This document shows, in pieces, positions 20,636 to 62,576 of a stretch of DNA of 64,000 nucleotides. The stretch spans positions 1 through 64,000 of the forward strand of contig JACQDL010000005.1 in NCBI GenBank assembly GCA_016201065.1, read 5' to 3'. Below the pieces are notes generated by a model. It was not told the DNA's origin. It ran no database searches and saw nothing but the letters and a program-made list of their open reading frames with translations. This DNA comes from Actinomycetota bacterium. Its GTDB lineage: Bacteria; Actinomycetota; Actinomycetes; Mycobacteriales; JACQDL01. Within the stretch, counting starts at the first letter, position 1; each line of letters opens with the position of its first letter. The translations under genes were made by a program, and so were the position numbers.

Positions 20636-21631
20636 CTAGCGACTGTGGTCGACCGGTGGAGGCAGCGATGGGGGACCCGACCGCGCGACCGCCGCCACTT
20701 CGGTCGCACAGCCCCAGGAGAGGGTGACGCCCGCGCCGCCATGTCCGTAGTTGTGGATCACCCGGGCACCGTTGACAGTCTGCTGCGCGACGCGGACCCG
20801 GGGACGGGTGGGTCGTAGGCCAACCCGGTGGTCGATGACGGGGGCGTCGCGGAGGCGTGGCTCGATGCCGGCGCATCGGGCCACGATGGCGGCGGCTGTC
20901 GCGGGATCGGGTTTGCGGCTCCAGGCCCCGGGTTGGGCGGTACCGCCCAGGATCACGGTGTCGCCGTGGGGGCAGTAGTGCAGCAGGTCGGGCGAGAGAC
21001 CCGTGTCCTCGGAGAAGTGCTCGGTGATGCCGGGGTTCGCGACCACGACGAGCTGTCCTCGGACGGGTGTGAGATCGACGTCGTGAACGAGGTCGCGGGA
21101 GCCCATGCCGGTGCAGTTGACCACGATTGGCGCTACGCCGGTCGCCTCGTTGATGGAGTTGACGCGCCGGATCTCGATATGGCCGCCTGCCTCGGTGAAC
21201 CGCCGTTCGAGGTAGCCCAGGTAGGTCGGCATGTCGACGACGGGCGCGGTGAACCGCCAGCCGGTGGTGAACCCGTCCGGCAGCTCGCTGGCCTCGCAGA
21301 TGCGGAACCCGTCGAGCTGGTGACCCCACTCGGGCGGTTCGGTCGGGGTGCGGGACGCCTCGACGCCTGAGACGAGCCGGACGCCGGTCGCCGGATCTTT
21401 GGCGAGCTGCTGCAGCACCTCCAGCGTCTCAGCGCTCCAGACGCGGACCCGGTCAACGGGCTCGACGCGGTACGGGCCCCACATCGCCCCGGCGGCAACC
21501 GAGGTGGTGGCCTGTGCGGGCTCGGCGGTCCAGATCCGTACCCGCATACCCAGCTCGGCGAGGCAGATCGCGGTGGTCAGGCCCGTGACGCCGGCACCGA
21601 CGATCAGCGTGTCGAGACTGGTGCGGTCCAC
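20636..21631 (-). CDS. FAD-dependent D-amino-acid oxidase
   Basis: This 331-residue flavoprotein has the dinucleotide motif LIVGAGVTGLTTAICLAE at the N-terminus, the DAAO segments AGAMWGPYR and NCTGMGSRDL, and a C-terminal HNYGHGGAGVTLSWGCA close to the family signature. I chose the GTG at 21631, which lies inside the 3' end of the regulator gene (28-nt overlap). The usual reaction oxidises D-amino acids to 2-oxo acids with H2O2. It is on the opposite side of the regulator from the biosynthetic operon and may supply or remove an amino-acid intermediate. Confidence 0.85.
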   Translation of the reverse strand: MDRTSLDTLIVGAGVTGLTTAICLAELGMRVRIWTAEPAQATTSVAAGAMWGPYRVEPVDRVRVWSAETLEVLQQLAKDPATGVRLVSGVEASRTPTEPPEWGHQLDGFRICEASELPDGFTTGWRFTAPVVDMPTYLGYLERRFTEAGGHIEIRRVNSINEATGVAPIVVNCTGMGSRDLVHDVDLTPVRGQLVVVANPGITEHFSEDTGLSPDLLHYCPHGDTVILGGTAQPGAWSRKPDPATAAAIVARCAGIEPRLRDAPVIDHRVGLRPTRPRVRVAQQTVNGARVIHNYGHGGAGVTLSWGCATEVAAVARSGPPSLPPPVDHSR

Positions 21632-23076
21632 GGCTTCGACCGTAGCTGTCGCGTCGGCTGTCGGGCCAGTGCGGTCTCCAGTTCGGGGAGGAGATCGGCC
21701 ACAGCCTGGTTGCGTTTGCGGCGCCGCATCTCCCCGGCGAGGGTGCTCAGAAGCGCGACGCTGCGGGGTGAACGGACCTGGTCGAGCCGCGGCAGGGCCA
21801 TCCGGACGGCGGCGCAGGCGTCGTCGAGCTTGCCGTGGGCGGTGTAGCCGAGGGCGAGCCATGCGCCCTCGTAGAGCGCGCGCCGCTGGTAGGGCTCGTT
21901 GGGGTGACGGGCGTAGGCACCGGTGCGGAGCAGCGCCTCGCCCTTGCGGAGAAGCGCCCGCCCATCGGTGGCTGCGCCGTTCGCGACCGTCTGGCGGCCG
22001 GCGAGGATCATGGCGTATCCGGCTTGGCAGTCGAGATGGTTGTCAGTGAGGTAGTACATCCAGGCGGGATCACGGTCGGGTTGCCGGACGGCGAGGCGCT
22101 CGCGGGCCCGCGACCAGGCGCGCTCGCAGTCATCGACCCTACCGGCGGCGGCATTGGCGTAGGCGAGTCGGGACAGCACGGATGCCTGGACGCTTGGGGT
22201 GGACCGGTCAGCGGTGCGCCATGCGGCGGCGCCGAGGGTCAGGCCGTCGGCAGTGTCACCGAGGGAGGCGGCCTGGAAGGCCAGATCGGCGAGGATGTGC
22301 GCTTCCATCGCACGGTAGCCGGCATCGCGGGCAGCGCGTAGTCCGGTGAAGAAGTACCGCTGGGCCAAGCCTTGCTGGTCGGCGTCGAACGCCTTCCAAC
22401 CGGCCAGTTGGGTGAGGTCGGCGAGGGCAACCAGCAGCCGGCGGGTGGTGGCGTCGGTGTTGCCGCCCTCACGTAGGACCAGCAGCACGGCGCGGACCTG
22501 GGCGCCGACGTAGCTGAGACCGGCGGCACCGCCGCGTTCGTCGTCAAGCAGCTGGAGGCGCGGGATGCTGGCCTCGATCTGGTCGACCAGCGGATCGTCG
22601 GCTGACGCGGCGGCGGACATTCCGCCGCTGGCGTGGTCCTGGGCGCCGAGGTAGGCGCTGACGGCATGGATGAGCGTGGCGCCGGATACCGAGAGGAAGA
22701 TTCGGCGATCCACGAGCCCCCCTAGCAGCCAGTCCTCGGCGATGAGCATGGTGGTGTGGAGGTTCCATGGCCCGTCCATGCCGGCGCTGGCTGGCAGGAC
22801 CAGTGTCGCCTCGACCGTGCCTGTCAGCCCGGGCCAGAGGTCCGTGACGGTGATCACACGGCCAATGTGCCTGGAGATCGTGTATGCGGTGAGGGCAGGC
22901 AACGGCGTACGGGGGACGCCTCCGGCGTCGCGCCAGTAGTAGGGCGCGGTCTCGGCGAGGGTGCCTGGTCCGAACAGCCGGTTCATCTCCCGGGCGAGGG
23001 TTCGGGGGGTGAGTCCCGCTTCGACCAGGTGGGCGGTAAGGGTGTGGTTGGACCGGTCTGTTGTGGCCACTGCCAT
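21604..23076 (-). CDS. large cytoplasmic regulator with N-terminal HTH and TPR-like C-terminus
   Basis: This 490-residue protein begins with a helix-turn-helix-like segment (LTAHLVEAGLTPRTLAREMN, then PYYWRDAGGVPR) and continues in an Ala/Leu-rich helical repeat region (about 190-480) typical of TPR-containing actinobacterial regulators. I chose the ATG at 23076 because GGGAGGAGCGA lies just upstream. It is divergent from the radical SAM operon across 195 nt and overlaps the D-amino-acid oxidase gene, so it is the likely pathway-specific regulator of both. The signal it reads is unknown. Confidence 0.75.
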   Translation of the reverse strand: MAVATTDRSNHTLTAHLVEAGLTPRTLAREMNRLFGPGTLAETAPYYWRDAGGVPRTPLPALTAYTISRHIGRVITVTDLWPGLTGTVEATLVLPASAGMDGPWNLHTTMLIAEDWLLGGLVDRRIFLSVSGATLIHAVSAYLGAQDHASGGMSAAASADDPLVDQIEASIPRLQLLDDERGGAAGLSYVGAQVRAVLLVLREGGNTDATTRRLLVALADLTQLAGWKAFDADQQGLAQRYFFTGLRAARDAGYRAMEAHILADLAFQAASLGDTADGLTLGAAAWRTADRSTPSVQASVLSRLAYANAAAGRVDDCERAWSRARERLAVRQPDRDPAWMYYLTDNHLDCQAGYAMILAGRQTVANGAATDGRALLRKGEALLRTGAYARHPNEPYQRRALYEGAWLALGYTAHGKLDDACAAVRMALPRLDQVRSPRSVALLSTLAGEMRRRKRNQAVADLLPELETALARQPTRQLRSKPWTAPVSTR

Positions 23077-23271
23077 TCGCTCCTCCCACCGGGTTGACCG
23101 CAGGTACCGAGAAGGTAACGGCTCGTAGTAGTCGATGCGAGCCGACATTGACGCATTTGACGGATCCGCCCCCTCCCCTGCGCGGGTGCTTCGCGGTGTG
23201 CTGGAGACCCCCGCCGGCGTACCGCCGATGGCTGCGCCGGTGGGCGGTCCGACAAAGGGTGGAGGCGGGAG

Positions 23272-24225
23272 ATGCATACCTCAACGACGGCACAGGCGAG
23301 CGTCCCGTGGGAGTGGGAGTTTGACTGGCACCTGACGAACCGGTGCGACTTCTTCTGCGAGTACTGCCACCCGCAGATCCGGTACGTGCTCAACCGCGGG
23401 CGCCTCGACGAACCCGCTCCAGAGCTTGTCGTGCAACGCTTCGACGAGCTGGACCGGGTATGCCTGGTGCACATGTCAGGCGGCGAGCCGTTCCTGTTCC
23501 CCGCCTTCGTCGAGCTGTGCGAGGGCCTGACCAGCCGGCACTTCATCAGCATCAACACCAACCTCGCCTCCGACGACGTGGCGGCGTTCGCCGCGCGGGT
23601 ACCCGCCGAGCGGGTCACCAAGATCGTCGCAGCGATCCACCAGTCGGAGCGGCAGATGCGGGGACTGTCGCTGGGCGCCTACGCCCGCAACTACGCCGCA
23701 CTGCGCCACGGCGGCTTCGACGTGACCGCACTGTATGTCCTGTACCCACCGCTGCTCGCCGGCCTAGCCGACGACTTGGACCGGCTGCGGTCGCTGGGGG
23801 TCGACCACATCCGCGCGAAGGTGTTCAAGGGCGTGTACCAGGGTGTGCGTTACCCGGAGGGTTACACCGCTGACCAGAAGATGATCGTGCTGGCCAACTC
23901 CGGCGAGTACGCGTTCAACCGCCCCTACCTCGACGGAATGCTGTCCTTCCGTGGCCAGGCATGCACCGCCGGAGTGACCTCGTTCAAGGTGACCGTCACC
24001 GGTGACGTACGCCGTTGCGCGTCAGTGCCATCCGGCTACGGCAACCTCTACGACGGCACGTTCCGGCCCCGACAGGGCAACGAGCCCTGCCCGGCGAAGC
24101 GAGTTCTGGTCCTGTCGCAGTGCCTGTCGTACCTCGTCGATCCGCCGGTCCACCCCGAGCTGGGCGTCGAGCCGAACGACTTGTCGTCGTCCCACGAAGG
24201 CCATTCCCGAAAGGCGCTCTCATGA
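23272..24225 (+). CDS. radical SAM enzyme with C-terminal Cys-rich region
   Basis: This 317-residue enzyme has the CxxxCxxC cluster motif with Cys25, Cys29 and Cys32 (NRCDFFCEYC), SGGEP at 69-73 for SAM binding, and four further Cys at 231, 249, 273 and 284 that could hold an auxiliary Fe-S cluster as in twitch/SPASM proteins. GGAGGCGGGAG precedes the ATG. It is the first gene of a seven-gene operon and overlaps the next gene by 4 nt. It should generate a 5'-deoxyadenosyl radical; the substrate is unknown. The next gene encodes a SAM-making enzyme, which would feed it. Confidence 0.87.
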   Translation: MHTSTTAQASVPWEWEFDWHLTNRCDFFCEYCHPQIRYVLNRGRLDEPAPELVVQRFDELDRVCLVHMSGGEPFLFPAFVELCEGLTSRHFISINTNLASDDVAAFAARVPAERVTKIVAAIHQSERQMRGLSLGAYARNYAALRHGGFDVTALYVLYPPLLAGLADDLDRLRSLGVDHIRAKVFKGVYQGVRYPEGYTADQKMIVLANSGEYAFNRPYLDGMLSFRGQACTAGVTSFKVTVTGDVRRCASVPSGYGNLYDGTFRPRQGNEPCPAKRVLVLSQCLSYLVDPPVHPELGVEPNDLSSSHEGHSRKALS

Positions 24226-25472
24226 GGATCGCGGTTCACCGCGCCTGCGTCGACCCGGACCGACTGCCATTCGACGCCGCCGAACGGAAGGGCATCGGAC
24301 ACCCTGACAGCCTCGCCGACCTGGTCGCTGACACGTTCTCCCACCGGTACTCGACCTGGAGTCGCCACCGGTTCGGAGCCATCCCCAACCACTGGGTGGA
24401 CAAAGTTACCCTGGTCGGCGCTGCGGCCGAGGTGACCTTCGGCGGTTTCGACATCCACAAGCCAGTCGACTGCTACCTCTTCGGCAAGATCACCGACCGG
24501 GTCGGGTCGACACCGGTACCTGTCGAGGAAATCTTCGGTGAGGTCATCGCCAACGTGCTGCCGACGGCGTTGGGCGACGGCCGCATCCTCGACCACGTCC
24601 GGCTGCACGTCAACAACACCTCCGGCATCGCGGTCGACCACGACGCCCGGTTCTACCGGCCCCAAGCGGCCGAGGATGTCGCGACCGTGCTCGCGGTTGA
24701 GTCGGTCGCCAACGACACGGTCCTCTGCACCGGCGCTGGCCGCCGAGGATTCGCCGCCGACCTCGCCGTGGGCCTGGAACGCTGGATCACCGGCGCGGAG
24801 TTCCAGCGCATGACGCCGGCGGTGGGCACCGACGTGAAGATCATGGTGGTGCGGGTCGGGTCAGTCGTGGACGTGACGGCCGCCGTGCCGTTCCACCCGG
24901 AGGTCGTCGGCTCGTGGAAGGCGTACCGGGGTTGTCTCGCCGACGTGCGGGTGGCGATCTCCGCCGAGCTGAAGTCACTGCTCGATCAGGATCCGAGGGC
25001 CCGCGATGTCACCGGCCTGTCGTTGTCGCTGAACACCAAGGACACTCCTGGCCGGGGCTACCTCGCCCCGTTCGGTACGTCCCTGGGCAAGGGCGACTGT
25101 GGCGCGGTAGGGCGCGGCAACCGCTACAGCGGTGCCATCGAGCCACTGAGACCGGCGAGTTGCGAGGCGCCAGCGGGCAAGAACCCGGTCCACCATGCGG
25201 GGAAGATCTACACCGCCGTCGCGGCCGAGGCGGCACGGCTGATTCTGGTCGAGACGTCGGTCTACGCGGAGGTGACCATCGCCGCTCGCAACGGTGGCCA
25301 GCTCGGCGACCCGGCGCACGTCCTGGTGTCACTGGAGCGGGATGTCGACACCGCGACGATGACGGCGGTCGAGCAGATCGTGCGCGGCTGTGTCGCGGGT
25401 GCGGCCGACTACTCCAACCGTTTCCTGGCGACCGATCCGCTCACCCTGTTCCGTGAAGGAGCCCATCCGTGA
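24222..25472 (+). CDS. archaeal-type methionine adenosyltransferase
   Basis: This 416-residue protein matches the archaeal AdoMet synthetase family (PF01941), not bacterial MetK. I see AERKGIGHPDSLADLVAD near the N-terminus, HWVDKVTLVGAAAEVTFGG, ANDTVLCTGAG, PAVGTDVKIMVVRVG, and the C-terminal GAVGRGNRYSG and EAPAGKNPVHHAGKIY blocks. The family makes SAM from methionine and ATP. The ATG overlaps the radical SAM stop (ATGA) and its stop overlaps the methyltransferase GTG. A cluster-borne SAM synthetase beside a radical SAM enzyme and two methyltransferases would secure SAM supply, or could make a SAM analogue. Activity is inferred from motifs. Confidence 0.85.
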   Translation: MRIAVHRACVDPDRLPFDAAERKGIGHPDSLADLVADTFSHRYSTWSRHRFGAIPNHWVDKVTLVGAAAEVTFGGFDIHKPVDCYLFGKITDRVGSTPVPVEEIFGEVIANVLPTALGDGRILDHVRLHVNNTSGIAVDHDARFYRPQAAEDVATVLAVESVANDTVLCTGAGRRGFAADLAVGLERWITGAEFQRMTPAVGTDVKIMVVRVGSVVDVTAAVPFHPEVVGSWKAYRGCLADVRVAISAELKSLLDQDPRARDVTGLSLSLNTKDTPGRGYLAPFGTSLGKGDCGAVGRGNRYSGAIEPLRPASCEAPAGKNPVHHAGKIYTAVAAEAARLILVETSVYAEVTIAARNGGQLGDPAHVLVSLERDVDTATMTAVEQIVRGCVAGAADYSNRFLATDPLTLFREGAHP

Positions 25473-26125
25473 CGAATGCGGTCCTTCCCGAGACACACCG
25501 CCGGCACCTGGCGACGCTTCGGGGCATGCCTGCGGTCCTCGACGCCGAGGGGCTGCGCATCGGCCACGAGTTCGTGATGTTCTTCGCCGAGGCGGAGCTG
25601 ATGCACGGACACGCCACCCGGCTCACCGAGGGCATCGCCCGGCCGGACGTGCTGGAGGTCGGCCTTGGCCTGGCCGTGTTCGCCGAGCAGCTCAGACCCC
25701 ATCGTGTCGGGTCGTACACCGCGGTCGAACCGCACCCCGGCGTCGCCCGGCTGGCCCGCCAACGGGTGCTTGACACCTTCGATCCACCCCCGGTGGTACT
25801 CACCGAGCCGTGGCAGCTCCTGACGTTCCCCATCGGCGCCTACGACGTGATCATGTACGACACCTGGCCACCGGACGGCCACGCCGACAGGGACTTCGCC
25901 ACCTTTGTCGCGCACGTGGCCATCCCGTGCCTACGACCGGGCGGCCGGTTCAGCTTCTTCCACAGCGGCGACACGGTCAACGCAGCCCGCCAGCAGGTCC
26001 TCGACCAGTACTTCGCCGGGTGGGCCGTCCATCCGTACACCATGCCGGCCGCGCTCATGCCGCCGCACTGGACGAAACCGACCCGCGACTTCCTGATCCC
26101 GATCGCCACGAAAGGGAGCGCCTGA
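25469..26125 (+). CDS. class-I SAM-dependent methyltransferase
   Basis: This 218-residue protein has a Rossmann SAM site (DVLEVGLGLAVFAEQL, about 60-76), an acidic second strand (YTAVEPHPGV) and MYDTWPPDG, where the methyl acceptor site usually lies. The pattern VLEVGLGL with AVEPH resembles guanidinoacetate/arginine N-methyltransferases, which would suggest a guanidine or amine acceptor, but I would not name one. It overlaps the methionine adenosyltransferase gene by 4 nt and is followed after 1 nt by the oxygenase gene. Confidence 0.78.
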   Translation: MTNAVLPETHRRHLATLRGMPAVLDAEGLRIGHEFVMFFAEAELMHGHATRLTEGIARPDVLEVGLGLAVFAEQLRPHRVGSYTAVEPHPGVARLARQRVLDTFDPPPVVLTEPWQLLTFPIGAYDVIMYDTWPPDGHADRDFATFVAHVAIPCLRPGGRFSFFHSGDTVNAARQQVLDQYFAGWAVHPYTMPAALMPPHWTKPTRDFLIPIATKGSA

Positions 26126-26126
26126 C

Positions 26127-26885
26127 ATGCCATCGCCTTTCACGTCGCCCATCCCGGCCCACCGGCGGGAACATTTCGCCACCGACGGGTTTCTCGTCCT
26201 ACCCGACCTCGTGGCACCCGGCACCGTTGAGGCGCTACGTGCCGATGCCGATGCCGTGCTGGTACGCCGGCTGTCCGAGATGGCCGTGACGCGGACCCTG
26301 GACCCGCGGGTGACGTGGTGGCGTCTGCCGTCTGGCCGCCCGTACGTACTGAAGATCAAGCCGGTGGTCGATCTCGCGCCCACCGCAGCGGCGGTCGCCT
26401 ACGGGGAGGTGCTGAGCACGCTGGCGGCCGACCTGCTGGGCGCACGGCCCCGGCTGATGGAGGACAAGTTCATATACAAGCAGGTGGTCGACGTCACCGG
26501 TGGTTGGGCGGAGTTGCCGGTCCTCGGCGAAGAAGTGCGCAAGCACACCGACGCCGTCTACTTCCACGCCCGTGGATACCAGCGGGTCCTCACCGTCGCG
26601 GTGTGCCTGGACTCCTGTACCGAGCAGGCCGGCGCTATTCGGGTCTGGCCGAGAAGCCACCAGCGCGCCGTCGAGATGATCGCCACCGACTGCCAGGGCC
26701 CGGTCGTGCCGGACACCCGAGCCCCCGACGCTGAGGCTGTCACCCTGGTAACGGAACCCGGCACGGTGCTGCTTTGGGACGCGGCGCTGGTGCACGGCAG
26801 TGGCCCCAACGTCTCCGGCAACCCGCGCCGGCTGCTGGTCCTGGGCTACGCCCCGACCGGCCCGGACAGCGGTGAGCCGCAGTGA
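26127..26885 (+). CDS. PhyH-type Fe(II)/2-oxoglutarate oxygenase
   Basis: This 252-residue oxygenase has the family start REHFATDGFLVLPDLV, the iron ligands His140 and Asp142 in KHTDAVYF, distal His223 in LVHGSGPN, and Arg234/235 for the 2-oxoglutarate carboxylate. All catalytic residues are present. Such enzymes hydroxylate or desaturate small molecules, including carrier-free amino acids and peptides. It is in the middle of the coupled operon: 1 nt after the methyltransferase and overlapping the SDR gene (GTGA). Confidence 0.85.
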   Translation: MPSPFTSPIPAHRREHFATDGFLVLPDLVAPGTVEALRADADAVLVRRLSEMAVTRTLDPRVTWWRLPSGRPYVLKIKPVVDLAPTAAAVAYGEVLSTLAADLLGARPRLMEDKFIYKQVVDVTGGWAELPVLGEEVRKHTDAVYFHARGYQRVLTVAVCLDSCTEQAGAIRVWPRSHQRAVEMIATDCQGPVVPDTRAPDAEAVTLVTEPGTVLLWDAALVHGSGPNVSGNPRRLLVLGYAPTGPDSGEPQ

Positions 26886-27865
26886 AGATCCTCATGCTCG
26901 GCGGAACCCGCTTCGTCGGTCGCCACATCGTGTCCGAGTGCCTGGCCCGCGGTGACGACGTGACCGTGCTGTACCGGGGCCGCTCGCCCTCGCCGTTCGC
27001 CGGGCTCGCCCGGCACGTCCGTACCGACCGGCGTGCTCCCACCGACGAAGCCAGAGTCGTGCTCGCCGAGCCGTGGGATGCGGTGATCGACACTAGCGCC
27101 ACCGATGTCGACGACCTCCACCCGGTCCTGCCCACGCTCGGTGAGCTTGGCGGGTACGTACTGGTGTCGACGTGCGGGGTGTACCGCCGTGCCACCGGTG
27201 GTGCCGTGCTGACCGAGCGATCGCCGACCATCGTGGCCGACGCATCGCATCCCGCGAGGGCGTCGGCCACCCGCAAACTGCGCTGCGAGCGATATCTGCG
27301 CCGCCGCCTCGACCGGATCGGGGTGCCACCGCTGATCGCCCGACTCGGTCTGGTCATCGGCCAGTACGACGACAGTGACCGCCTCGCGTACTGGCTGGAC
27401 CGCGCCCTGCGCGGTGGTGAGGTATTGGTCCCGATGGATCCCGAGCAGCCGATCCAGCTCGTTGACGCCACCGACGTGGCCCGCTTCCTTCGACACGCGG
27501 TCGACGAACATCTGTCCGGCGTAGTAAACGTGGTCGGGCCGCGCACCACCGCGCGGGACCTGCTCGACACGGTCCTGACCCACGACGGACGACCGACCAC
27601 GCTGTGCTGGGTAGGCGAGGACTTCGCCCTGGCCAACGGAGTGCGACCCTGGACCGAGGTCCCGCTGTGGCTGCCCACGACCAGCCCCGAGCGGTCACTG
27701 ATGTCGGTGGGGAGCACCCGCACCGAGACCACCGCCCTGGCCCACCGGCCGCTCGACGAAACCATCACCGACTGCCTCGCCTGGCAGGAGCTGCGCCGTG
27801 GCTGGTCACAGCGCTGGCTGGACCACACCCGCGAGCAGTACCTGCTGCACCAGTGGCAGGGCTGA
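26882..27865 (+). CDS. extended SDR (NAD-dependent epimerase-like) lacking the catalytic Tyr
   Basis: This 327-residue protein has an N-terminal Rossmann motif LGGTRFVGRHI (6-16) and the strand VLVSTCGVYRR. At the usual YxxxK site it reads S-A-T-R-K (128-132): Lys132 is kept but the Tyr is Ser. The remainder (RLGLVIGQYDDSDRLAYWLDR, IQLVDATDVARF) fits atypical extended SDRs. The missing Tyr could mean a non-redox or binding role, or another residue in its place. It is the fifth gene of the operon, with 6 nt to the FkbM gene. Confidence 0.75.
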   Translation: MKILMLGGTRFVGRHIVSECLARGDDVTVLYRGRSPSPFAGLARHVRTDRRAPTDEARVVLAEPWDAVIDTSATDVDDLHPVLPTLGELGGYVLVSTCGVYRRATGGAVLTERSPTIVADASHPARASATRKLRCERYLRRRLDRIGVPPLIARLGLVIGQYDDSDRLAYWLDRALRGGEVLVPMDPEQPIQLVDATDVARFLRHAVDEHLSGVVNVVGPRTTARDLLDTVLTHDGRPTTLCWVGEDFALANGVRPWTEVPLWLPTTSPERSLMSVGSTRTETTALAHRPLDETITDCLAWQELRRGWSQRWLDHTREQYLLHQWQG

Positions 27866-27871
27866 GCCACT

Positions 27872-28495
27872 GTGCTGCCCTACACGCAACCGGAGCCGTT
27901 CCACTCCCAATGGGGCGAGGACCGCTGGCTCGTCGAGCATCTCAACGTCCCCCGGGCAGGAGTCTTCGTTGACGTCGGCGCTGGTGACGGCGTCCACGGC
28001 CGCAACACCCTGCACTTCGAGAACCTGGGCTGGAGCGGGCTGTGCGTGGACGCCGACCCTCGCAACCACAAACCCCTACGCCGACGCCGTTGCGCGGTGG
28101 ACACCCACGCCATCTCAACCACTCCAGGCCGGCGGCCGTTCGGCATGTATACCCACAAGCCGTCCTGGTCGGGACTACGCCGCGGGGGCACCGACTACCG
28201 GGCGATCCTCGTCGAATGCCGCCCGCTGGAAGCTCTCCTGGGCACGTGGCGCATCGACCGGATCGACCTGCTCAGCATCGACGTCGAAGGCACCGAACTC
28301 GACGTCTGGGACTCCTTCGACCACGCCCGCCACCAACCCTCCGTCGTGATCGTCGAGTTCGACGACCACCACCCAGGTCGGCACCGCCGTACCATCCAGC
28401 ACCACCTCGGCCACGATACGTACCGGTTGATCCACGAGACCCCGGCGAATCTGATCCTCCAACGGGCCGACCGGCCCTGGCGCCCACGCCGATGA
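27872..28495 (+). CDS. FkbM-family methyltransferase
   Basis: This 207-residue protein has the FkbM features: SQWGEDRWL near the start, FVDVGAGDGVHGRNTLHFE (32-50, SAM site), GWSGLCVDADPR and IDLLSIDVEGTELDVW. The family usually methylates hydroxyls or carboxylates of secondary metabolites and glycans. The GTG start follows the SDR by 6 nt and the stop overlaps the ATP-grasp ATG. It is slightly shorter than usual members (about 230-280). Confidence 0.82.
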   Translation: MLPYTQPEPFHSQWGEDRWLVEHLNVPRAGVFVDVGAGDGVHGRNTLHFENLGWSGLCVDADPRNHKPLRRRRCAVDTHAISTTPGRRPFGMYTHKPSWSGLRRGGTDYRAILVECRPLEALLGTWRIDRIDLLSIDVEGTELDVWDSFDHARHQPSVVIVEFDDHHPGRHRRTIQHHLGHDTYRLIHETPANLILQRADRPWRPRR

Positions 28496-29871
28496 CACAG
28501 TCGATCACCGACCTGCTGCCCGGCGACAGGATCATCGTCGTCTGCGGCCGGGCCGATGACGCCCACGCCTGGCGCAGCCTGTTCGGTCCCGACCGGTGCC
28601 TGGCCGTCGCGCTCGACGAAGCGCCGCCCGAGAGGCGGGTCGCGCCCCTACGAGGCGCCTCCGACCATCTGGCGTGGCAGCACCGGGCCATTGCCGGGCT
28701 GGACGGCTCCGGCTGGCTCGCCCAGGCAGCGGATGCCTTCGACCCCGACCACACCGCCATGCTGGTGTTGCCCGACCCACTAGACCCAGCCCGGGTGGGT
28801 GACCGGCGCCAGATCGGGAGTCGGCACGCAGCCTGGCGGCACTTTGAGGACAAGACCGTGGTCGACACCCTCTGGGACGCCATCGGAGTACGCCGAACCC
28901 GATCCATCACCACGGACTACCTGCCCGACCTGGGCGCCCTGGGCATGTTGGTCGACGGCGGCAGCGGGGTCGTGTGCTCCTTCCAACCCGTCGGCGCGGG
29001 TCCGGCGGCGGGAGGCGACGGCATCTGGTGGTGGCGTCACGGCCAACCCCCAGCGGCTATGCCTACCGCCGGGCCAGGTGCCTGGCGGGTCCGGCTGATG
29101 CCTCTTCTGGAGGGGGTGCCGGTCCGCCTGCACGGCCTGGTGCTGACGCACCACGTCGTGGCGTTCCCGCCCATGGAGATCGTGACGCTGCCACGGCCGG
29201 ACCACGGCACACTCATGTACGCTGGCACCGTGCCGGCCCTCGGCCACCGTCCTGACCTGCTCGCGCAGACGAAGCACCTCGGCGCCGGGCTACGCGGTCA
29301 ACTCGGCTACCGTGGCGGGTTTTCCGTCGATGGCGTCCTTACCGTCGAGGGCTTCCGGCCCACCAACTTCAACGCGCGGCTCACCTCGGCCATGGAAGGA
29401 GCCCGCTCCGAGCTACGGGTAGTGCTGCACTCGGTCAACCTCTTGGCACGGGACGGGACAGACCTCAAGCCCACGGTTGTCGAACGCCTCGCGGAGCAGG
29501 TGTTCGACAACCGTGAGGAGTACACGCTGTACGGCGCGGCCACGTGTGTCGGTGCTGGAAAGCCCCGACACGTCGCGGTCCGCTGGGCGGGCCGCAGCCG
29601 GCTCGTCGTCGCCGACGGACCGCACGCCGACGGCCGACTGGAGGTGACCCCCTCCGTTCGGGGTTGGCTGCTGACCGCCACCCTGACCGTGGCCCGGCTT
29701 CCGCTGGGCCGTCCGGTCGGAAGGTTCGCGCCCGAGATCTTCCGGCTCAGCGACCGGATACTCGGGACCGCCTTCGGCAACCTCGCTTCCCCGTTCGGCA
29801 TCTGCACCACTCATGTGCCAGCGCCGCGAGTTGGCACGGATTCGGTCGAGGCGCGTGCCCGCCCCACGTAG
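28492..29871 (+). CDS. ATP-grasp-like ligase
   Basis: This 459-residue protein shows ATP-grasp features in order: an N-terminal pre-ATP region (about 1-110), AWRHFEDKTVVDTLWDAIGV where the first ATP Lys lies, a Gly-rich loop (GAGPAAGGDG), RLMPLLEGVPVRLHGLVL and the C-terminal GYRGGFSVDGVLTVEGF followed by NFNARL in place of the usual N-x-R Mg motif (E-x-N-P-R). The replaced Pro and Glu are unusual. The family forms amide, ester or thioester bonds with ATP and acyl-phosphate intermediates. It overlaps the FkbM gene and is the last of the operon, 5 nt from the convergent gltX stop. Confidence 0.72.
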   Translation: MTQSITDLLPGDRIIVVCGRADDAHAWRSLFGPDRCLAVALDEAPPERRVAPLRGASDHLAWQHRAIAGLDGSGWLAQAADAFDPDHTAMLVLPDPLDPARVGDRRQIGSRHAAWRHFEDKTVVDTLWDAIGVRRTRSITTDYLPDLGALGMLVDGGSGVVCSFQPVGAGPAAGGDGIWWWRHGQPPAAMPTAGPGAWRVRLMPLLEGVPVRLHGLVLTHHVVAFPPMEIVTLPRPDHGTLMYAGTVPALGHRPDLLAQTKHLGAGLRGQLGYRGGFSVDGVLTVEGFRPTNFNARLTSAMEGARSELRVVLHSVNLLARDGTDLKPTVVERLAEQVFDNREEYTLYGAATCVGAGKPRHVAVRWAGRSRLVVADGPHADGRLEVTPSVRGWLLTATLTVARLPLGRPVGRFAPEIFRLSDRILGTAFGNLASPFGICTTHVPAPRVGTDSVEARARPT

Positions 29872-29876
29872 CGCGG

Positions 29877-31280
29877 TCAGCTCATGCGGTCGAGGGCGGC
29901 CCGCAGGCGGGCCATGGTTCGCTCACGCCCGAGGATCTCGATCGACTCGAACAGCGGCAGCCCGACGGTGCGACCGGTGACCGCCACCCGCACCGGGGCC
30001 TGCACCTTGCCCAGCTTCAGCCCGCGCACGGCGCCGACCGCCTCCAGCGCCGCCTTCAACGGCTCGGCGCGCCACTCGACCGACCTGTACGCCTCCGCCA
30101 CCGCACCCAACAACCCGGAGGCGTCAGCGTTCATCGCCTTCTCCCACGCGGCGTCGTCAGCCGGCGGCTCGTCGAGGAACAGGAAGTCAACCATCGGCAC
30201 GACCTCCGACAGCACCGCCACACGCGTCTGCGCCAGCCCTGCGACTGCGGCGAAGACGCCCTCCTCGTACGCCTCAGGCCGCCACGGGGTGCTGTCGCCG
30301 TGAAGCCACGGCTTACACGCCTCGACAAACCCGTCAACCGACAGTGCCCGGATGTAGTGGCCGTTGAACGCACGCAGCTTCTTCACATCGAAGAACGTCG
30401 GAGACGGGTTGACATCCTCCAGCCGGAACTCGGCCACGATGGCATCCCACGGTACGATTTCTCGATCGCCTGAGGGCGCCCACCCGAGCAACATCAGGTA
30501 GTTGCGGATCGCCTCGGCCAAGTATCCGTCGGCGCGGAAATCCTCCAACGCCACCCGGTCCCGCCGCTTGGACAGCTTCTGCCGCTTCTCGTTGACCAGG
30601 ATCGGTGCGTGCACCCACACGGGAGGCTCGGCGCCGAGCGCCTCCCACAGCAACTGCTGCTTCGGCGCGTTGGACAGGTGCTCCTCCGCCCGAATCACGT
30701 GCGTGATGCCCATGACCATGTCGTCGACGACGTTGGCCAGCAGGAACACCGGCGACCCGTCGCTCCGCGCGATCACGAAGTCCTCGATCAGCGCGTTCTC
30801 GAACGCCGGCTTGCCTCGCACCAGGTCGACGACGACCGTCGTCCCCTCCTTCGGGGTACGGAACCGCACGGCCCGACCGTCCCCCCCGCCCAGTGCGCGA
30901 TCGCGGCAGAAGCCGTCATACCCCTTGTGCTCACTACCAGTACGGGCTATGACCTGGTCACGGGTGCATTCACAGTAGTAGGCAAGGCCGACGGTGAGCA
31001 GCCGGCTGATGGCGGCCCGGTGGTCTTGTACGTAGTCCGACTGAAACAGCGGCCCCTCGTACTCATCCGGTCCGATCCCCAACCAGGCCATCGCGTCGAG
31101 GATTCCCCGCACCCACTCAGGCCGGCTGCGCGCCGCGTCCGTGTCCTCAATCCGCAACACCAGCGTCCCGCCCGACTGCCGCGCCAGCACCCAATTGAAC
31201 AGAACGGAGCGGGCATTGCCGACATGGAACATCCCCGTCGGCGAGGGCGCGAAACGAACACGAAGCTCGGACTTGGTCAC
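29877..31280 (-). CDS. gltX: glutamyl-tRNA synthetase, HVGN type
   Basis: This 467-residue class-I enzyme has [16 protein letters not shown] (HIGH as HVGN, 19-22), [11 protein letters not shown], a zinc-type CEC...YDGFC region, and KLSKR (235-239). It makes Glu-tRNA. Actinomycete housekeeping GltX usually reads NPHVGLVRT with a longer insert, so this is a divergent type and may be an extra copy. It is convergent with the biosynthetic operon, 5 nt from its end. Glu-tRNA-using pathways sometimes carry their own gltX, but a housekeeping role is equally possible. Confidence 0.88.
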
Positions 31281-53478: not shown

Positions 53479-53551
53479 GCCCTCTTAGCTCAGTCGGCAG
53501 AGCGTCTCCATGGTAAGGAGAAGGTCTAGGGTTCGATTCCCTAAGAGGGCT
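53479..53551 (+). tRNA. tRNA-Thr (GGT)
   Basis: A complete cloverleaf has 7-bp acceptor arms GCCCTCT/AGAGGGC, a TTCGATT T loop and a 7-nt anticodon loop ATGGTAA with GGT. A genomic CCA follows (53552-53554). Confidence 0.95.
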
Positions 53552-53610
53552 CCACGCCGGTCGCGAGACCGGCGGCGCGGCGGGTGCGGGTCCACCGCGG
53601 TCCGCCGTAC

Positions 53611-53683
53611 GGCGGAGTAGCTCAGGCGGTAGAGCAAGCGGCTCATAATCGCTGTGTCGCCGGTTCGAGTCCGGCCTCCGCTA
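53611..53683 (+). tRNA. tRNA-Met (CAT, elongator-like)
   Basis: The acceptor stem GGCGGAG/CTCCGCT (one G-T pair), anticodon loop CTCATAA and T loop TTCGAGT are present. The paired 1-72 end marks it as an elongator rather than an initiator. Confidence 0.9.
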
Positions 53684-53757
53684 CCGAGGCACCCGGCCAG
53701 CCGGGTGCCTGTAATGCCCGCGGGCTCCCCGAGCCCCCAGAGGAAAGGCACTCCACC

Positions 53758-53922
53758 GTGGCTGCCACCGACGTTCGGCCAAAGATCACCATGGCCTGCC
53801 AGGAGTGCAAGCACCGCAACTACATCACCCGCAAGAACCGCCGCAACGACCCTGACCGCATGGAGCTGAAGAAGTTCTGCCCGAACTGCCGGACCCACCG
53901 GGTTCACCGCGAGACTCGCTGA
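53758..53922 (+). CDS. rpmG: ribosomal protein bL33
   Basis: This 54-residue protein has two zinc-type Cys pairs, CQEC and CPNC, and [24 protein letters not shown], as in C+ type L33. AGAGGAAAGG precedes the GTG. It follows two tRNA genes, in the usual actinomycete order. Confidence 0.95.
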
Positions 53923-53930
53923 CCCGGTCG

Positions 53931-54386
53931 ATGACGGTCAGCCCGGAGTTTGTCGGACGCTCCTACCCGCCGACCGCACCGTACGAGGTGTGCCGGGAGA
54001 AGATCCGGGAGTTCGCCGATGCGATCGGCGATCCGAACCCGGCCTTCCGGGACCCGCAGTCGGCCCGCGATCTCGGCCATCTCGATGTGATCGCACCGCC
54101 GACATTTCCGGTGATCGTGTCGTTCCTGGCCACCCGCGGCGTCATCGAAGACCCGGACCTCGGCATCGACTACAGCCGGGTCGTGCACGGTGAGCAGCGC
54201 TTCAGCTACACCCGGCCGGTGCGGGCGGGCGACCGCCTGGTCGGCGTCGCCAGCGTGACCAGCGTCCGCCGCGCCGCCGGCAACGACCTGATCAGCACGG
54301 GCGTCGAGGTGTCCACCGCCGAGGGTGAGCCGGTGGTCACGGTCCACTCCACGATCGTCGTGCGCGGCATCGCGCAGGAGCGCTGA
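53931..54386 (+). CDS. HadA-like MaoC-domain dehydratase
   Basis: This 151-residue protein has the UPF0336/HadA pattern: FADAIGDPNPAFRDPQSARDLGHLDVIAPPTFPVIV, HGEQRFSYTRPVRAGD and VVTVHSTIVVR. In mycobacteria HadA pairs with HadB as the (3R)-hydroxyacyl-ACP dehydratase of FAS-II; in this family the HadA-type chain lacks the catalytic His/Asp and supports the partner. It is followed after 4 nt by the HadB-like gene. Confidence 0.88.
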   Translation: MTVSPEFVGRSYPPTAPYEVCREKIREFADAIGDPNPAFRDPQSARDLGHLDVIAPPTFPVIVSFLATRGVIEDPDLGIDYSRVVHGEQRFSYTRPVRAGDRLVGVASVTSVRRAAGNDLISTGVEVSTAEGEPVVTVHSTIVVRGIAQER

Positions 54387-54390
54387 GCGG

Positions 54391-54819
54391 ATGGCGGCCC
54401 GGATCGCCTACGCCGACGTCGAGATCGGCACGGAGCTGCCGGAACGGCGGTTCCCGATCCGCCGGGAGGACCTGATCCGGTACGCCGGCGCCTCCGGCGA
54501 CTTCAACCCGATCCACTGGAACGAACGGTTCGCCACCAGCGTGGGCCTCCCCGACGTCATCGCGCACGGGATGCTCACGATGGCGGAGGCGGCCCGCGTG
54601 ATCACCGACTGGGCCGGCGACCCGGGAGCCCTCGTCGACTACGGCGTGCGCTTCGCCAAGCCGGTCGTGGTGCCCAACGACGAGCATGGCGCCGAGCTCG
54701 TGGTGGGCGGCACGGTCGTGGACAAGCTGGACCGGATGCGGGTCGCGGTCGACCTGACCGCCCGTTCCGGTGGGGACAAGGTGCTGGCCAGGGCGCGCGC
54801 CGTCGTCCAGCTCTGCTGA
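54391..54819 (+). CDS. HadB-like MaoC dehydratase
   Basis: This 142-residue hotdog protein has YAGASGDFNPIHWNERFATSVGLPDVIAHGMLTMAEAA, where Asp and His of the MaoC/hydratase-2 active site (D-x-N-P-I-H) are present. It is probably the catalytic partner of the HadA-like protein just upstream in a type-II fatty-acid dehydration step. The arrangement rpmG-hadA-hadB is conserved across many actinomycetes. Confidence 0.9.
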   Translation: MAARIAYADVEIGTELPERRFPIRREDLIRYAGASGDFNPIHWNERFATSVGLPDVIAHGMLTMAEAARVITDWAGDPGALVDYGVRFAKPVVVPNDEHGAELVVGGTVVDKLDRMRVAVDLTARSGGDKVLARARAVVQLC

Positions 54820-54845
54820 GCCAGCGGGTCGGCTATCTTCGCCGC

Positions 54846-56270
54846 ATGCGTACCGGCCCGGCCGTCACGGCCGCCCTCCTGCTGGCCATGGTGCTCACCG
54901 CCTGCGGTGACTCCGGCACCGGCCGACCCGGACCGGCGCCGCAGGCCCGGCCATCGGCCTCGGCCAGCCGGGCGAACTGCCCGGACCGGTACGCCGAGCC
55001 GGACCCGAACCGGCCGCGGATCACCCTCGCCTTCGACGTCACCGACGACCTGACCACGGTGACCGGCACCGAGCGGGTCAGCTTCCGTCCGGACCTGCCG
55101 GTGCACGAGGTGGTGTTCCGGCTCACCGGCAACGACCCGAGCTCCTACCCCTCGGGAACGGCAGTCACGGTCCAGCGGGCGAGCGCCAGCGTGGGTGCGG
55201 CGGCCACCACCACGATGCGGTTCGAGCGGGCCGGGGCGGCGGCCGGCAGCCAGGGCGGGCTGCTCGTCCTGCCGCTGGACCGGGAGGTCCCGGCCGGGCA
55301 GGAGGTGACCGCCACGGTCGGGTTCACCCTCACCCTCGGCGGGACCGGGTTCGACCGTTTCGGGCGAATCGACCGGTTCGCCTGGTTCGGGTCGGCCCAA
55401 CCCCTGCTGGCGTGGCAGCGGGAGGTCGGCTGGCACCGGGAGGATCTGGCCCGCTACATCGGGGAGAGCGCGACGAGCGAGGCGGCGAACGTCGATCTCA
55501 CCGTCACCGCGCCCGGCTGGGCCACGGTGATGACCAGCGGTCGGCAGGATCCACCCACACCAGCCGACCGCGGTCGTCGCCGGTGGCACGCCAGCGCCCC
55601 CACCGCGCGGGATGTCAGCGTTGCGCTCGGTCGCTTCGCCCTCACCCGGGAGACGGTTGCCGGCACCGAGCTCACCGTCGGGGCCGCTGACGCATCCACC
55701 GCGCGGCAGGCGCTGGCCGAGCTGGCTCGTGCGGTGCGGGAGCTGTCCGCCCGGTTCGGCCCGTTCCCCTTCCCCGCGCTGAACGTGAGTGTCCTGCCGT
55801 CGGGGGGCGGTGGCATCGAGTACCCGGGCTCGATCCTGCTGTTCGGGAGCTCGCGGGTGGTCGACGTGCACGAGACCGCGCACCAATGGTTCTACGGTCT
55901 CGTCGGGGACAACCAGGCCCGCGATCCCTGGCTGGACGAGGCCTTCGCCACCTACGCCGAGGGGTTGGCCAACGGCGACGCTGGCGGCACCGACCAGCCC
56001 GATCCCGGCGGACCGGGGTCCGGCCGGGTCGGCGCCGGGATCAACGACTTCCCGACCTCGGAGGCCTACTTCGGCACCGTCTACGGCAAGGGCGCTGCGG
56101 CCCTGCGCAGGGCACGGGCTCAGGCCGGGGCGGCGGCGTTCGACGCCGCGATCCGCTGCTACACCAACGCCAACGCCTGGCGGATCGCCCGACCGGCCGA
56201 CCTGGCCAGCGCCCTCGGCGACTTACCGTCCGCGCTCGCCGCGCTACGCCGGGCCGGCGCCCTGAGCTGA
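54846..56270 (+). CDS. M1-like lipoprotein metallopeptidase
   Basis: This 474-residue lipoprotein has a signal peptide with lipobox LTAC (Cys about 20), an N-terminal beta region like aminopeptidase N, and VHETAHQWFYGLVGDN with HExxH (His342, Glu343, His346) and the third zinc ligand Glu365 in WLDEAFATYAE. The GxMEN exopeptidase motif is replaced by GGGIEYPG, so substrate range may differ from aminopeptidase N. It should act outside the membrane. Confidence 0.85.
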   Translation: MRTGPAVTAALLLAMVLTACGDSGTGRPGPAPQARPSASASRANCPDRYAEPDPNRPRITLAFDVTDDLTTVTGTERVSFRPDLPVHEVVFRLTGNDPSSYPSGTAVTVQRASASVGAAATTTMRFERAGAAAGSQGGLLVLPLDREVPAGQEVTATVGFTLTLGGTGFDRFGRIDRFAWFGSAQPLLAWQREVGWHREDLARYIGESATSEAANVDLTVTAPGWATVMTSGRQDPPTPADRGRRRWHASAPTARDVSVALGRFALTRETVAGTELTVGAADASTARQALAELARAVRELSARFGPFPFPALNVSVLPSGGGGIEYPGSILLFGSSRVVDVHETAHQWFYGLVGDNQARDPWLDEAFATYAEGLANGDAGGTDQPDPGGPGSGRVGAGINDFPTSEAYFGTVYGKGAAALRRARAQAGAAAFDAAIRCYTNANAWRIARPADLASALGDLPSALAALRRAGALS

Positions 56271-56353
56271 GACCGGGCCTGCCCCGAGGTGACCTGGCCG
56301 GCCCGGACCTGGCCGGACCTGACCTGGCCGGCGCGGCGCGGCGCGGCCGGGCG

Positions 56354-57559
56354 CTAGCGGGCCTCTGACAGCAGATCCCCCAGCCGGGTGATGCCCTTGA
56401 CAAGATCTTCGTCGGAGAGGGCGTAGGACAGCCGGAAGTACCCGGCCGTGCCGAACGCCTCGCCCGGCACGACGGCCACCTCGGCCTCCTCCAGCACCAG
56501 CTCGGCAAGCTCGGCGGAGGTTTGCGGGGTCCGGCCGCGCAGCGAGCGCCCGAGGAGCTGCCGGACGCTGGGGTAGACGTAGAACGCGCCCTGTGGTTCC
56601 GGGCAGGCCAGGCCCGGGATCTCGTTCAACATCCGGACGATGGTCTGCCGGCGCCGGTCGAAGGCGATCCGCATCCGGGCGACCGCGGTGAGCTCGCCCG
56701 ACACCGCGGCGAGCGCCGCGACCTGGGAGACGTTGGCGACATTGGAGGTGGCATGGGACTGGAGGTTGGTCGCCGCCGTGACCACGTCGGCCGGGCCGAT
56801 CAGCCAGCCGACCCGCCAGCCGGTCATGGCGTAGGTCTTGGCCACACCGTTGAGCACGACGCAGGTGCCGGCCAGCTCCGGCACGGCCACCGGCATCGAC
56901 ACCGCGCGGGCCACGCCGTAGACGAGGTGCTCGTAGATCTCGTCGGTGACCACCCAGACACCCCGGTCCACCGCCCACCGGCCGATCGCCGCGACCTGCT
57001 CGGGCGGGTAGACGGCCCCGGTCGGGTTGGAGGGTGAACAGAACAGCAGCACCTTGGTGCGCGCGGTCCGGGCCGCCTCAAGCTGGTCCACCGTGGCCAG
57101 GTAGCCGCCGGCCTCATCGGTCGGCACCACCACCGGCACACCGCCCGCGAGCGCGATCGCCTCCGGGTAGGTCGTCCAGTACGGCGACGGGAGCAGCACC
57201 TCGTCACCGGGGTCGAGCAGCGTGGCGAACGCCTCGTACACGGCCTGCTTGCCACCGTTGGTCACGAGCACCTGCGAGGACTGCACGGCGTAGCCGGAGT
57301 CACGCAGGGTCTTCGCCGCGACCGCCGCACGGAGCTCGGGCAGACCGGCGGCGGGGGTGTAGCGGTGGTACCGGGGCTGTCCGCAAGCCTCGACCGCGGC
57401 CTGGACGATGTGCTCCGGGGTCGGGAAGTCGGGCTCGCCGGCGCCGAAGCCGATCACCGGCCGCCCGGCGGCCTTGAGCGCCTTCGCCCTGGTGTCCACC
57501 GCGAGGGTGGCCGACTCGGTGATGCCACCGATCCGTGCCGAGATGCGATTGGCTGCCAT
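56354..57559 (-). CDS. aspC: class-I aspartate-type aminotransferase
   Basis: This 401-residue PLP enzyme starts [46 protein letters not shown] and has [47 protein letters not shown], the PLP Lys in [16 protein letters not shown], and [14 protein letters not shown]. This is the bacterial subgroup Ib aspartate/prephenate aminotransferase. The genomic position before tRNA-Trp and secE is typical. Confidence 0.93.
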
Positions 57560-57715
57560 GTCTGAAGTGTCGCAGAGCCCTCGGGCGCCGGGTCGCCGAC
57601 TCCCGGCCCCGTTTGGGCGATCGCGCCGGGTGTCCGTACACTGCCTTGTCTGGGGTCGTACTGCCCCGGTCCTGCCGTGGTCGCTGCACCGCGGCGGGTC
57701 CGGCAGTCACCCCGG

Positions 57716-57788
<73 letters not shown>

Positions 57789-57866
57789 CCGCGCTGCGGG
57801 CTGCCGCAACGACAGGTTGGTGCCCGCGTCACGGCGCATCGTGACGCAGACGGAGGAGAGGATCGC

Positions 57867-58127
57867 GTGACGCAGACCCGCGGGGACGCGACCACCGCAC
57901 CCAAGGCGACCACCAAGGCCGCCGTCGGCACCCGCCGGGGACCGTTCGCCCGGCTCGGTCGGTTCTTCCGCGAGGTCGTCGCCGAGCTGAGCAAGGTGAT
58001 CTGGCCCTCCCGCAAGGAGCTGGTCACCTACACCGTGGTCGTGGTCGTGTTCGTCACGATCATGGTCACCCTGGTGTCCGGTCTCGACCTCCTGTTCGCC
58101 AAGGGTGTGCTGCTGGTCTTCGGCTAG
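57867..58127 (+). CDS. secE: preprotein translocase subunit SecE
   Basis: This 86-residue subunit has the amphipathic segment RFFREVVAELSKVIWPSRKELVTYT and one C-terminal transmembrane helix (VVVVVFVTIMVTLVSGLDLLF). GGAGGAG precedes the GTG. SecE clamps SecY in the Sec translocon. It is followed by nusG. Confidence 0.95.
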   Translation: MTQTRGDATTAPKATTKAAVGTRRGPFARLGRFFREVVAELSKVIWPSRKELVTYTVVVVVFVTIMVTLVSGLDLLFAKGVLLVFG

Positions 58128-58181
58128 CCACACCCGACCACACCGCACGACCGACGTACCCCGAGGAAAGAGAGCCAGCGC

Positions 58182-58919
58182 GTGCCCGAGTTCGACCAGA
58201 CCAGCAACTCCGTCGAGGAGGAGCGGCCGGCACTGCCCGGCGAGCCGGCCGGCGCCGACGGTGCCGCCGTGGTCGACGGCAGCGGGGCCACCGACAGCGG
58301 GGCCACCGACAGCGGGGCCACCGTGCCTGCCATCGATGCCGAGATCGACCCGATGGTCGAGCTGCGCGCGCTGCTCCGGCAGCAGCCCGGCGACTGGTAT
58401 GTGGTGCACTCCTACGCGGGGTACGAGAACAAGGTCAAGACCAACCTGGAGACCCGGATCACGTCCCTCGACATGGAGGACTACATCTACCAGGTCGAGG
58501 TGCCCACCGAAGAGGTCACCGAGGTCAAGAACGGCAAACGACAAACCGTCCAGCGCAAGGTCTACCCGGGCTACATCCTGGTCCGGATGGACCTCAACGA
58601 CGAGTCGTGGGGCGCGGTCCGCAACACCCCTGGCGTCACCGGGTTCGTGGGCGCGACATCCCGACCGTCACCGCTGTCACTGGACGAGGTCGTGAAGATC
58701 CTCGCTCCAGCGGTGGCGAAGAAGACCGAAAAGCCGCAGGTCCGGGTCGTCGACTTCGAGGTTGGCGAGTCGGTCACCGTGATGGACGGGCCGTTCGCGA
58801 CCCTGCCGGCCACGATCAACGAGATCAACCCCGAACAGCAGAAGCTCAAGGTGCTGGTCTCGATCTTCGGTCGGGAGACGCCGGTGGAGCTGTCCTTCAG
58901 CCAGGTGTCCAAGATCTAG
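58182..58919 (+). CDS. nusG: transcription termination/antitermination factor NusG
   Basis: This 245-residue protein has an acidic N-terminal extension, an NGN domain ([51 protein letters not shown]) and a KOW domain ([22 protein letters not shown]). The extension includes a threefold 15-nt repeat coding for GATDS (58281-58323). NusG links RNA polymerase with Rho and ribosomes. Confidence 0.95.
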
Positions 58920-58977
58920 GCAGGCCGCTACCCACTCCGGCGTGCCGCACGCCGCACCCGAACGAGGAAGAACCAGG

Positions 58978-59415
58978 ATGCCTCCGAAGAAGAAGCGAAA
59001 GATCACCGCGCTGATCAAGCTCCAGATCCGGGCCGGGCAGGCGACGCCGGCTCCGCCGGTCGGTCCCGCGCTGGGCCAGCACGGCGTCAACATCATGGAG
59101 TTCTGCAAGCAGTACAACGCCGCGACCGAAGCCCAGCGTGGCGACGTGATCCCGGTCGAGATCACCGTGTACGACGACCGGTCGTTCACCTTCGTCACCA
59201 AGACCCCACCGGCCGCCCGGCTGCTGCTCAAGGCCGCTGGCGTGGAGAAGGGCAGCGGGGAGCCGCACAAGACCAAGGTCGCCACGGTGAGCCGCGACCA
59301 GGTCCGGCAGATCGCCCAGCAGAAGCTGGACGACCTCAACGCCCACGACGTCGACCAGGCCGAGAAGATCATCGCTGGTACGGCCCGGTCGATGGGGATC
59401 ACCGTCAGGGACTGA
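58978..59415 (+). CDS. rplK: ribosomal protein uL11
   Basis: This 145-residue protein starts [17 protein letters not shown] and has [29 protein letters not shown] and the C-terminal [13 protein letters not shown]. It binds 23S rRNA at the GTPase centre. GAAGAACCAGG precedes the ATG. Confidence 0.96.
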
Positions 59416-59478
59416 CCGCCGCACCGGCAGGACGTGGGAGGGCCAGCGCTGGCCCGCCAAGACCACAGGAGGAACGGA

Positions 59479-60201: not shown

Positions 60202-60203
60202 GG

Positions 60204-61355: not shown

Positions 61356-61440
61356 GCCAGCGAGCTTACGGCCACCGTCGACCGAACCTCGCGCCCATCG
61401 GGCAGACTATGCGTGGGTTTCCGAGACGGTCGAGGGGCGA

Positions 61441-62495: not shown

Positions 62496-62576
62496 CGCCG
62501 GCAGGCGACCGTGTGGGTGGGCCGGCGGCCCGCCCACACGGTCGCGACAGCGCGCTCCCCGTCAGCACGCTCCCCG

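Follow-up and report, generated by a model that had tools for sequence, protein, structure and literature searches.

Duplicate synthetases act as immunity determinants in producers of several aminoacyl-tRNA synthetase (aaRS) inhibitors, including mupirocin (with MupM), borrelidin, indolmycin and albomycin; none of these systems is known to be directed at glutamyl-tRNA synthetase (GluRS), and their enzymology is unrelated to that of the cluster described here. In the obafluorin cluster, obaO encodes an extra, resistant threonyl-tRNA synthetase (ThrRS), and the self-resistance synthetase strategy is mentioned in the same paper for other aaRS-targeting products (PMC10619133). The locus analysed here lies at about 20.6–31.3 kb of a 64,000-nucleotide stretch of DNA from an Actinomycetota bacterium (contig JACQDL010000005.1, positions 1 to 64,000; hereafter the window). 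It resembles the obafluorin cluster in that a biosynthetic gene cluster contains an additional copy of the synthetase that its product inhibits or, here, would inhibit, a copy that is inhibitor-resistant in the case of ObaO and predicted to be so here (PMC10619133). The two differ in that obafluorin is a beta-lactone with ThrRS as its target, whereas here the target would be GluRS, genes for nonribosomal peptide synthetases (NRPS) or polyketide synthases (PKS) are absent, and resistance is predicted from sequence. We consider it likely that the locus is a mobile biosynthetic cluster whose product inhibits GluRS at the ATP/adenylate site, and that the convergent GluRS gene encodes a resistant second copy of this target, shielding the producer; the existence of this product and its action on GluRS are what we infer from the genes. 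Three features expected of an aaRS-inhibitor cluster are present, namely a second synthetase copy in the cluster, co-conservation of the genes and a change in the active site.

The cluster-borne GluRS of the window (29877..31280, minus strand), the predicted immunity gene, is full-length and convergent with the biosynthetic operon, from whose last gene, encoding an ATP-grasp ligase, it is separated by 5 nt. The protein scores above the TIGR00464 cut-off (399 bits against 290) and contains HIGH and KMSKS-type motifs, the former as HVGN, and a second GluRS that is 67% identical is encoded on another contig (C52) of the same genome. The cluster genomes that were searched have exactly two full-length GluRS each, of which one is cluster-borne and the other is encoded at a different place in the genome, except for Micromonospora qiuiae, whose cluster is truncated at the end of a contig; in four close relatives that lack the cluster, a single GluRS was found. 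In class I synthetases, the HIGH signature makes contact with ATP. When 26 cluster copies were aligned with 31 housekeeping copies, the fourth residue of this signature was found to be Gly (HVGG) in 31/31 housekeeping enzymes, Asn (HVGN) in 25/26 cluster enzymes and Ser (HVGS) in the remaining one (locus L103), and this residue after HVG is the only column in which all four cluster lineages depart from an invariant housekeeping residue. An independent scan for HVGN-coding DNA in 355 genomes of one family, that of genome G095, which includes Salinispora and Micromonospora, gave 32 positive genomes, comprising 21 of the 22 genomes with the cluster and 11 of the 333 others (Fisher p 7e-25, a value that ignores relatedness).

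Scanning the methionine adenosyltransferase (MAT) of the cluster against 84,980 species genomes revealed the cluster in Salinispora mooreana, S. cortesiana, M. qiuiae, M. radicis and Rhizocola hellebori, and also in Actinomadura harenae, an Actinocorallia sp. and Acrocarpospora corrugata; a match in Patescibacteria was an unrelated MAT and not a cluster. Five of the 22 cluster genomes in the family of 355 are strains already present in the MAT scan. In 25 loci besides the window, genes for a radical S-adenosylmethionine (SAM) enzyme, MAT, a methyltransferase, a PhyH-family oxygenase, an FkbM-family methyltransferase and the ATP-grasp ligase occur in the same order, with a few loci split or truncated where a contig ends, and GluRS comes after ATP-grasp in every uncut locus, on the opposite strand in all except Actinomadura. 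The window and the other loci have no flanking gene in common beyond three weak family-level matches. An earlier note on this DNA had proposed a compact biosynthetic cluster, to be doubted if homologous loci failed to keep the genes together; the genes are co-conserved in loci lacking shared flanks, as one would expect if the unit was inserted or is mobile, and the pattern suggests that the cluster is horizontally mobile among soil and marine actinobacteria. Tblastn of the radical SAM enzyme against plasmids gave no match, a search of 395 class-wide genomes returned distant matches to other radical SAM families only, and the cluster was found in 0/248 genomes of one unrelated genus. An insert of about 1.6 kb disrupts the ATP-grasp gene of S. 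mooreana (L047:15200-16835), the S. cortesiana gene being uninterrupted, and genome G804 has a second, partial copy of the radical SAM gene (75%) about 33 kb from its intact cluster (L153).

The GluRS tree contains a main clade of 21 cluster copies, a Rhizocola/G736 pair within a housekeeping clade, a G385/G180 pair, and the G251 copy from locus L103, which is sister to the housekeeping GluRS of its own genome (support 100/99). A single clade of all cluster copies was rejected in the approximately unbiased (AU) test (p-AU 3e-11, lnL -215). Judging from these trees, at least two, and more likely three or four, recruitments of GluRS have converged on the same residue. The 11 genomes with HVGN but without the cluster contain ten intact GluRS and one broken gene (L258), and 7/10 of the intact proteins branch among the cluster copies. 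At three loci (L250, L252, L255), an intact GluRS is found beside mere fragments of FkbM, short-chain dehydrogenase/reductase (SDR) or ATP-grasp genes, and because GluRS thus appears to outlast the decaying biosynthetic genes, immunity fits better than a biosynthetic role. One stand-alone HVGN GluRS adjoins a gene that looks creatininase-like by eye (L248:8121-10288), the main cluster having an enzyme related to guanidinoacetate N-methyltransferase (GAMT). Degenerate fragments resembling the cluster GluRS were also seen in a Micromonospora-family genome without the cluster (L191, G095:C1:4742194-4742626).

A second, minimal cluster type was found at three loci (L101:4552-9393, L102:4783-9833 and L103:4726-9566), where MAT and a sulfatase-superfamily enzyme are encoded in an operon with a degenerate GluRS-like protein that has neither HIGH nor KMSKS, convergent with an altered GluRS carrying HVGN or HVGS. 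Their MAT belongs to the same subfamily as that of the window (44-45% identical), and the linkage between MAT and GluRS is kept although the radical SAM enzyme, the GAMT-like methyltransferase, PhyH, FkbM and ATP-grasp are all lacking. MAT is thus the sole biosynthetic gene common to the two cluster types with an altered GluRS, and for this reason the product may contain an adenosyl group, the compound made by MAT being part of the pharmacophore; such a pharmacophore would match the place of the presumed immunity substitution, in the signature that binds ATP. The earlier note had expected a small modified amino-acid or peptide-like molecule, which is possible in view of the ATP-grasp, GAMT-like and PhyH enzymes, and the recurrence of the MAT–GluRS link in the second cluster type is the reason why we think that the adenosyl moiety matters.

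The MAT of the window (24222..25472, plus strand) is of the archaeal type (AdoMet_Synthase, PF01941, E 1e-60) and passes the gathering cut-off of that family, yet its 245 bits are about half of the 481-bit equivalog cut-off; we take it to be a superfamily member of a distinct subfamily, with methionine as a putative substrate only. Compared with canonical archaeal MATs (PDB 7p82, 4hpv), it belongs to the same fold family and retains the motifs GHPD, GRGNR and GKNP, whereas LHHN.DK/Q is replaced by PNHWVDK and SAExGD(D/E)G by SLGKGDCG. The subfamily motifs NHWVDK and GTSLGKGDCG, the latter with I for C in one member, are common to the cluster MATs and those of L101–L103 and are not found in canonical MATs. 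An ordinary housekeeping metK is present separately in the window genome.

Upstream of MAT, the radical SAM enzyme (23272..24225, plus strand; Pfam Radical_SAM E 9e-11, above the cut-off) is 66-83% identical across loci, and its CX3CX2C motif and four further Cys residues in the C-terminal region (C231, C249, C273, C284) are invariant in eight aligned homologues. From this pattern the extra Cys may form a twitch-like auxiliary cluster; the region that contains them has a pLDDT of about 30 in the predicted model, and sequence searches of the Protein Data Bank (PDB) gave weak matches or nothing. The GAMT-like methyltransferase (25469..26125, plus strand) belongs to the same sequence family as GAMT (profile match to GAMT structures, E 6e-11) and shares its YDTxP motif, while its C-terminal part has diverged; E41 and D131 of YDTWP, which we take to correspond to the guanidine-binding residues of GAMT structures, are invariant. 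The Fe(II)/2-oxoglutarate oxygenase (26127..26885, plus strand; Pfam PhyH E 1e-24) keeps its H(T/S)D motif in all loci possessing the gene, and the FkbM-family methyltransferase (27872..28495, plus strand) scores above the TIGR01444 cut-off and has an invariant DVEG motif. For the divergent ligase that ends the operon (28492..29871, plus strand), no Pfam, NCBIfam or PDB sequence match was obtained. All leading Foldseek matches of its AlphaFold2 model (pLDDT 66, pTM 0.62) are ATP-grasp-fold enzymes, including glycinamide ribonucleotide synthetase, PurK, Ddl and L-amino-acid ligases (E 3e-6 to 1e-3, probability about 1.0), and the name ATP-grasp is thus backed by the fold of a predicted model alone.

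The seven-gene coupled operon that the earlier note had placed within 20636-29871 was confirmed with all its same-strand genes and junctions, with overlaps of 4 nt at four of the six junctions and gaps of 1 nt and 6 nt at the remaining two. The radical SAM gene overlaps MAT at ATGA and MAT overlaps the methyltransferase gene at GTGA; then follow a 1-nt gap to PhyH, a 4-nt overlap of PhyH with SDR, a 6-nt gap to FkbM and a 4-nt overlap of FkbM with ATP-grasp. The note's family names stood for Radical_SAM, PF01941, PhyH, Epimerase, FkbM and DAO (all Pfam) and for the regulator, now placed in the NsdA family; the methyltransferase became GAMT-like, and ATP-grasp holds by fold only. Its boundary had to be moved, since the unit runs to 31280 and GluRS, its most telling member, had been left out. 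Because the gene set including GluRS recurs without other shared window genes, the predicted unit is one of about 20.6-31.3 kb that moves as a block. Three of the proposed members are not core and are absent from many loci, being found in subsets only: the extended SDR or epimerase-like protein (26882..27865, plus strand; Pfam Epimerase), which has lost the catalytic Tyr position, SATRK replacing YxxxK in most homologues; the FAD-dependent D-amino-acid oxidase or ThiO-like oxidase (20636..21640, minus strand; Pfam DAO E 5e-41), restricted to the subclade of the window (L047-L049, L053, L132, L134, L137, L139); and the divergent NsdA-family tetratricopeptide-repeat regulator (21604..23076, minus strand; NCBIfam NF053720 E 1.4e-63), copies of which are 71-80% identical in that same subclade. 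The 557-aa open reading frame of the regulator overlaps the start of the radical SAM gene, and the protein likely starts at an ATG near 23076. Genes for catabolism of gamma-aminobutyrate (GABA) and aminobutyraldehyde flank the cluster on both sides in the window, consistent with insertion into an amine-catabolism region. Further to the right, tRNA-Thr, tRNA-Met and tRNA-Trp genes lie within 53479-64000, and the ribosomal-protein and NusG-like genes seen by eye at the right end of the window resemble ordinary core chromosome.

In the order of steps, the substrates and the product that we infer, MAT would make SAM or a SAM analogue, and the radical SAM enzyme, the GAMT-like N-methyltransferase, the PhyH oxygenase and the FkbM methyltransferase would build or decorate an amino-acid-derived unit by a radical SAM step, guanidine or amine N-methylation, hydroxylation and O-methylation. 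The ATP-grasp ligase would then form an amide, joining the adenosyl-bearing product to an amino acid. The resulting compound, probably derived from SAM or adenosine, would occupy the ATP/adenylate site of GluRS, possibly as a mimic of glutamyl-adenylate, and the cluster GluRS with HVGN would continue to charge tRNA-Glu when the housekeeping GluRS is blocked, in a role like that of ObaO towards obafluorin (PMC10619133). Adenosine-bearing synthetase inhibitors such as the adenylate mimics of the microcin C and agrocin type would fit this action, a likeness that concerns the inferred action only; unlike in microcin C systems, no MccB-type enzyme or precursor peptide was recognised in the present cluster. 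The GluRS inhibitor found in the open-access literature, Glu-AMS, is a synthetic-type adenylate mimic (PMC4393105). More tentatively, at least two different cluster types, one with the radical SAM enzyme and ATP-grasp and one with MAT, the sulfatase-superfamily enzyme and the degenerate GluRS-like protein, might encode a natural GluRS-directed antibiotic on a MAT-made S-adenosyl scaffold and have reached a common target and a common immunity residue, MAT providing a SAM analogue as pharmacophore and not as cofactor.

The seryl-tRNA synthetase VlmL acts in valanimycin biosynthesis, glutamyl-tRNA serves class I lanthipeptide dehydratases, and the extra GluRS might likewise be a biosynthetic enzyme that provides the pathway with glutamyl-tRNA or activated glutamate. 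It is linked as tightly as the biosynthetic genes, and the operon of L101–L103 has its second, degenerate GluRS-like protein. We nevertheless regard such a supply role as unlikely: no tRNA-dependent transferase, LanB or peptide aminoacyl-tRNA ligase (PEARL)-type enzyme is found among the cluster families (neither a LanB/PEARL dehydratase or ligase nor NRPS/PKS assembly-line modules were detected by Pfam and NCBIfam among the window cluster genes), no tRNA-Glu gene lies beside the cluster in the eight loci scanned, GluRS remains intact at loci whose biosynthetic genes are fragmentary or missing, and the repeated change of one HIGH-signature residue would be unexpected for a mere supplier. Still less probable is that the metabolite is unrelated to GluRS, in which case the GluRS gene would be a passenger or would adapt metabolism, for instance to changed pools of glutamate or SAM; the strand of this gene, opposite to that of the operon in nearly all loci, and the stand-alone HVGN copies in 11 genomes could be read in this way, but the linkage is maintained in different families despite differing flanks, and in at least two cluster types, and GluRS has been recruited more than once. 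We give hardly any credence to ordinary primary or catabolic metabolism that extends the neighbouring amine-catabolism region, as the GABA and aminobutyraldehyde genes might suggest, given the patchy distribution (22/355 genomes of one family) and the near absence of flanking genes shared with other loci. A competitor of another kind, to which we assign somewhat less than an even chance, concerns the chemistry only and is compatible with self-resistance: MAT would boost SAM for the three SAM-using enzymes, the product would have no adenosyl group, and the pharmacophore would be a modified arginine- or glutamate-like amino acid joined by ATP-grasp. The radical SAM enzyme, the GAMT-like methyltransferase and FkbM do all consume SAM, the GAMT-like enzyme retains the presumed guanidine-binding Glu and Asp, and an arginyl-tRNA synthetase (ArgRS) lies beside GluRS in five loci; however, L101–L103 have the same MAT subfamily without those SAM users and still linked to an altered GluRS. 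This ArgRS gene lies between ATP-grasp and GluRS (L053:13141-14871 and the equivalent position in L131, L132, L134 and L137). Like GluRS, ArgRS belongs to class Ib, whose two members here require tRNA for activation (PMC7916415). We rejected ArgRS as a second target copy, as this type also occurs in genomes that lack the cluster and at other genomic positions, and the HIGH residues are unaltered in the adjacent copies.

Several observations weigh against GluRS inhibition with self-resistance as the function of the cluster. The conserved core showed no gene for a dedicated exporter, and the altered site varies naturally elsewhere, being Leu in the aligned GluRS of Mycobacterium tuberculosis. 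The stand-alone HVGN GluRS of L249, L251 and L253 form a group of their own; their neighbourhoods are unrelated, and no remnants of biosynthetic genes were recognised in them. Moreover, the main clade and the Rhizocola/G736 pair as one clade were not rejected in the AU test (p-AU 0.094), although a separate origin was favoured, and because these two are left unseparated the secure count of independent GluRS origins is below four.

Target-duplication immunity is a known principle, and it is GluRS as the target together with this gene set that appear new. In agreement with the earlier note, which knew of no described pathway with this set of enzymes, no published description of the cluster was found in the open-access full-text literature, where a report in a subscription journal could exist outside the search; no natural-product cluster aimed at GluRS was found described in the open-access literature either. 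If the proposed function is true, it would be known in advance what an uncharacterised compound targets and which gene, and even which residue, confers resistance to it, and the compound would be encoded in cultured strains, including those of two Salinispora species. GluRS of the HVGN type would offer a handle for finding further such clusters, and would be an example of convergent evolution of immunity.

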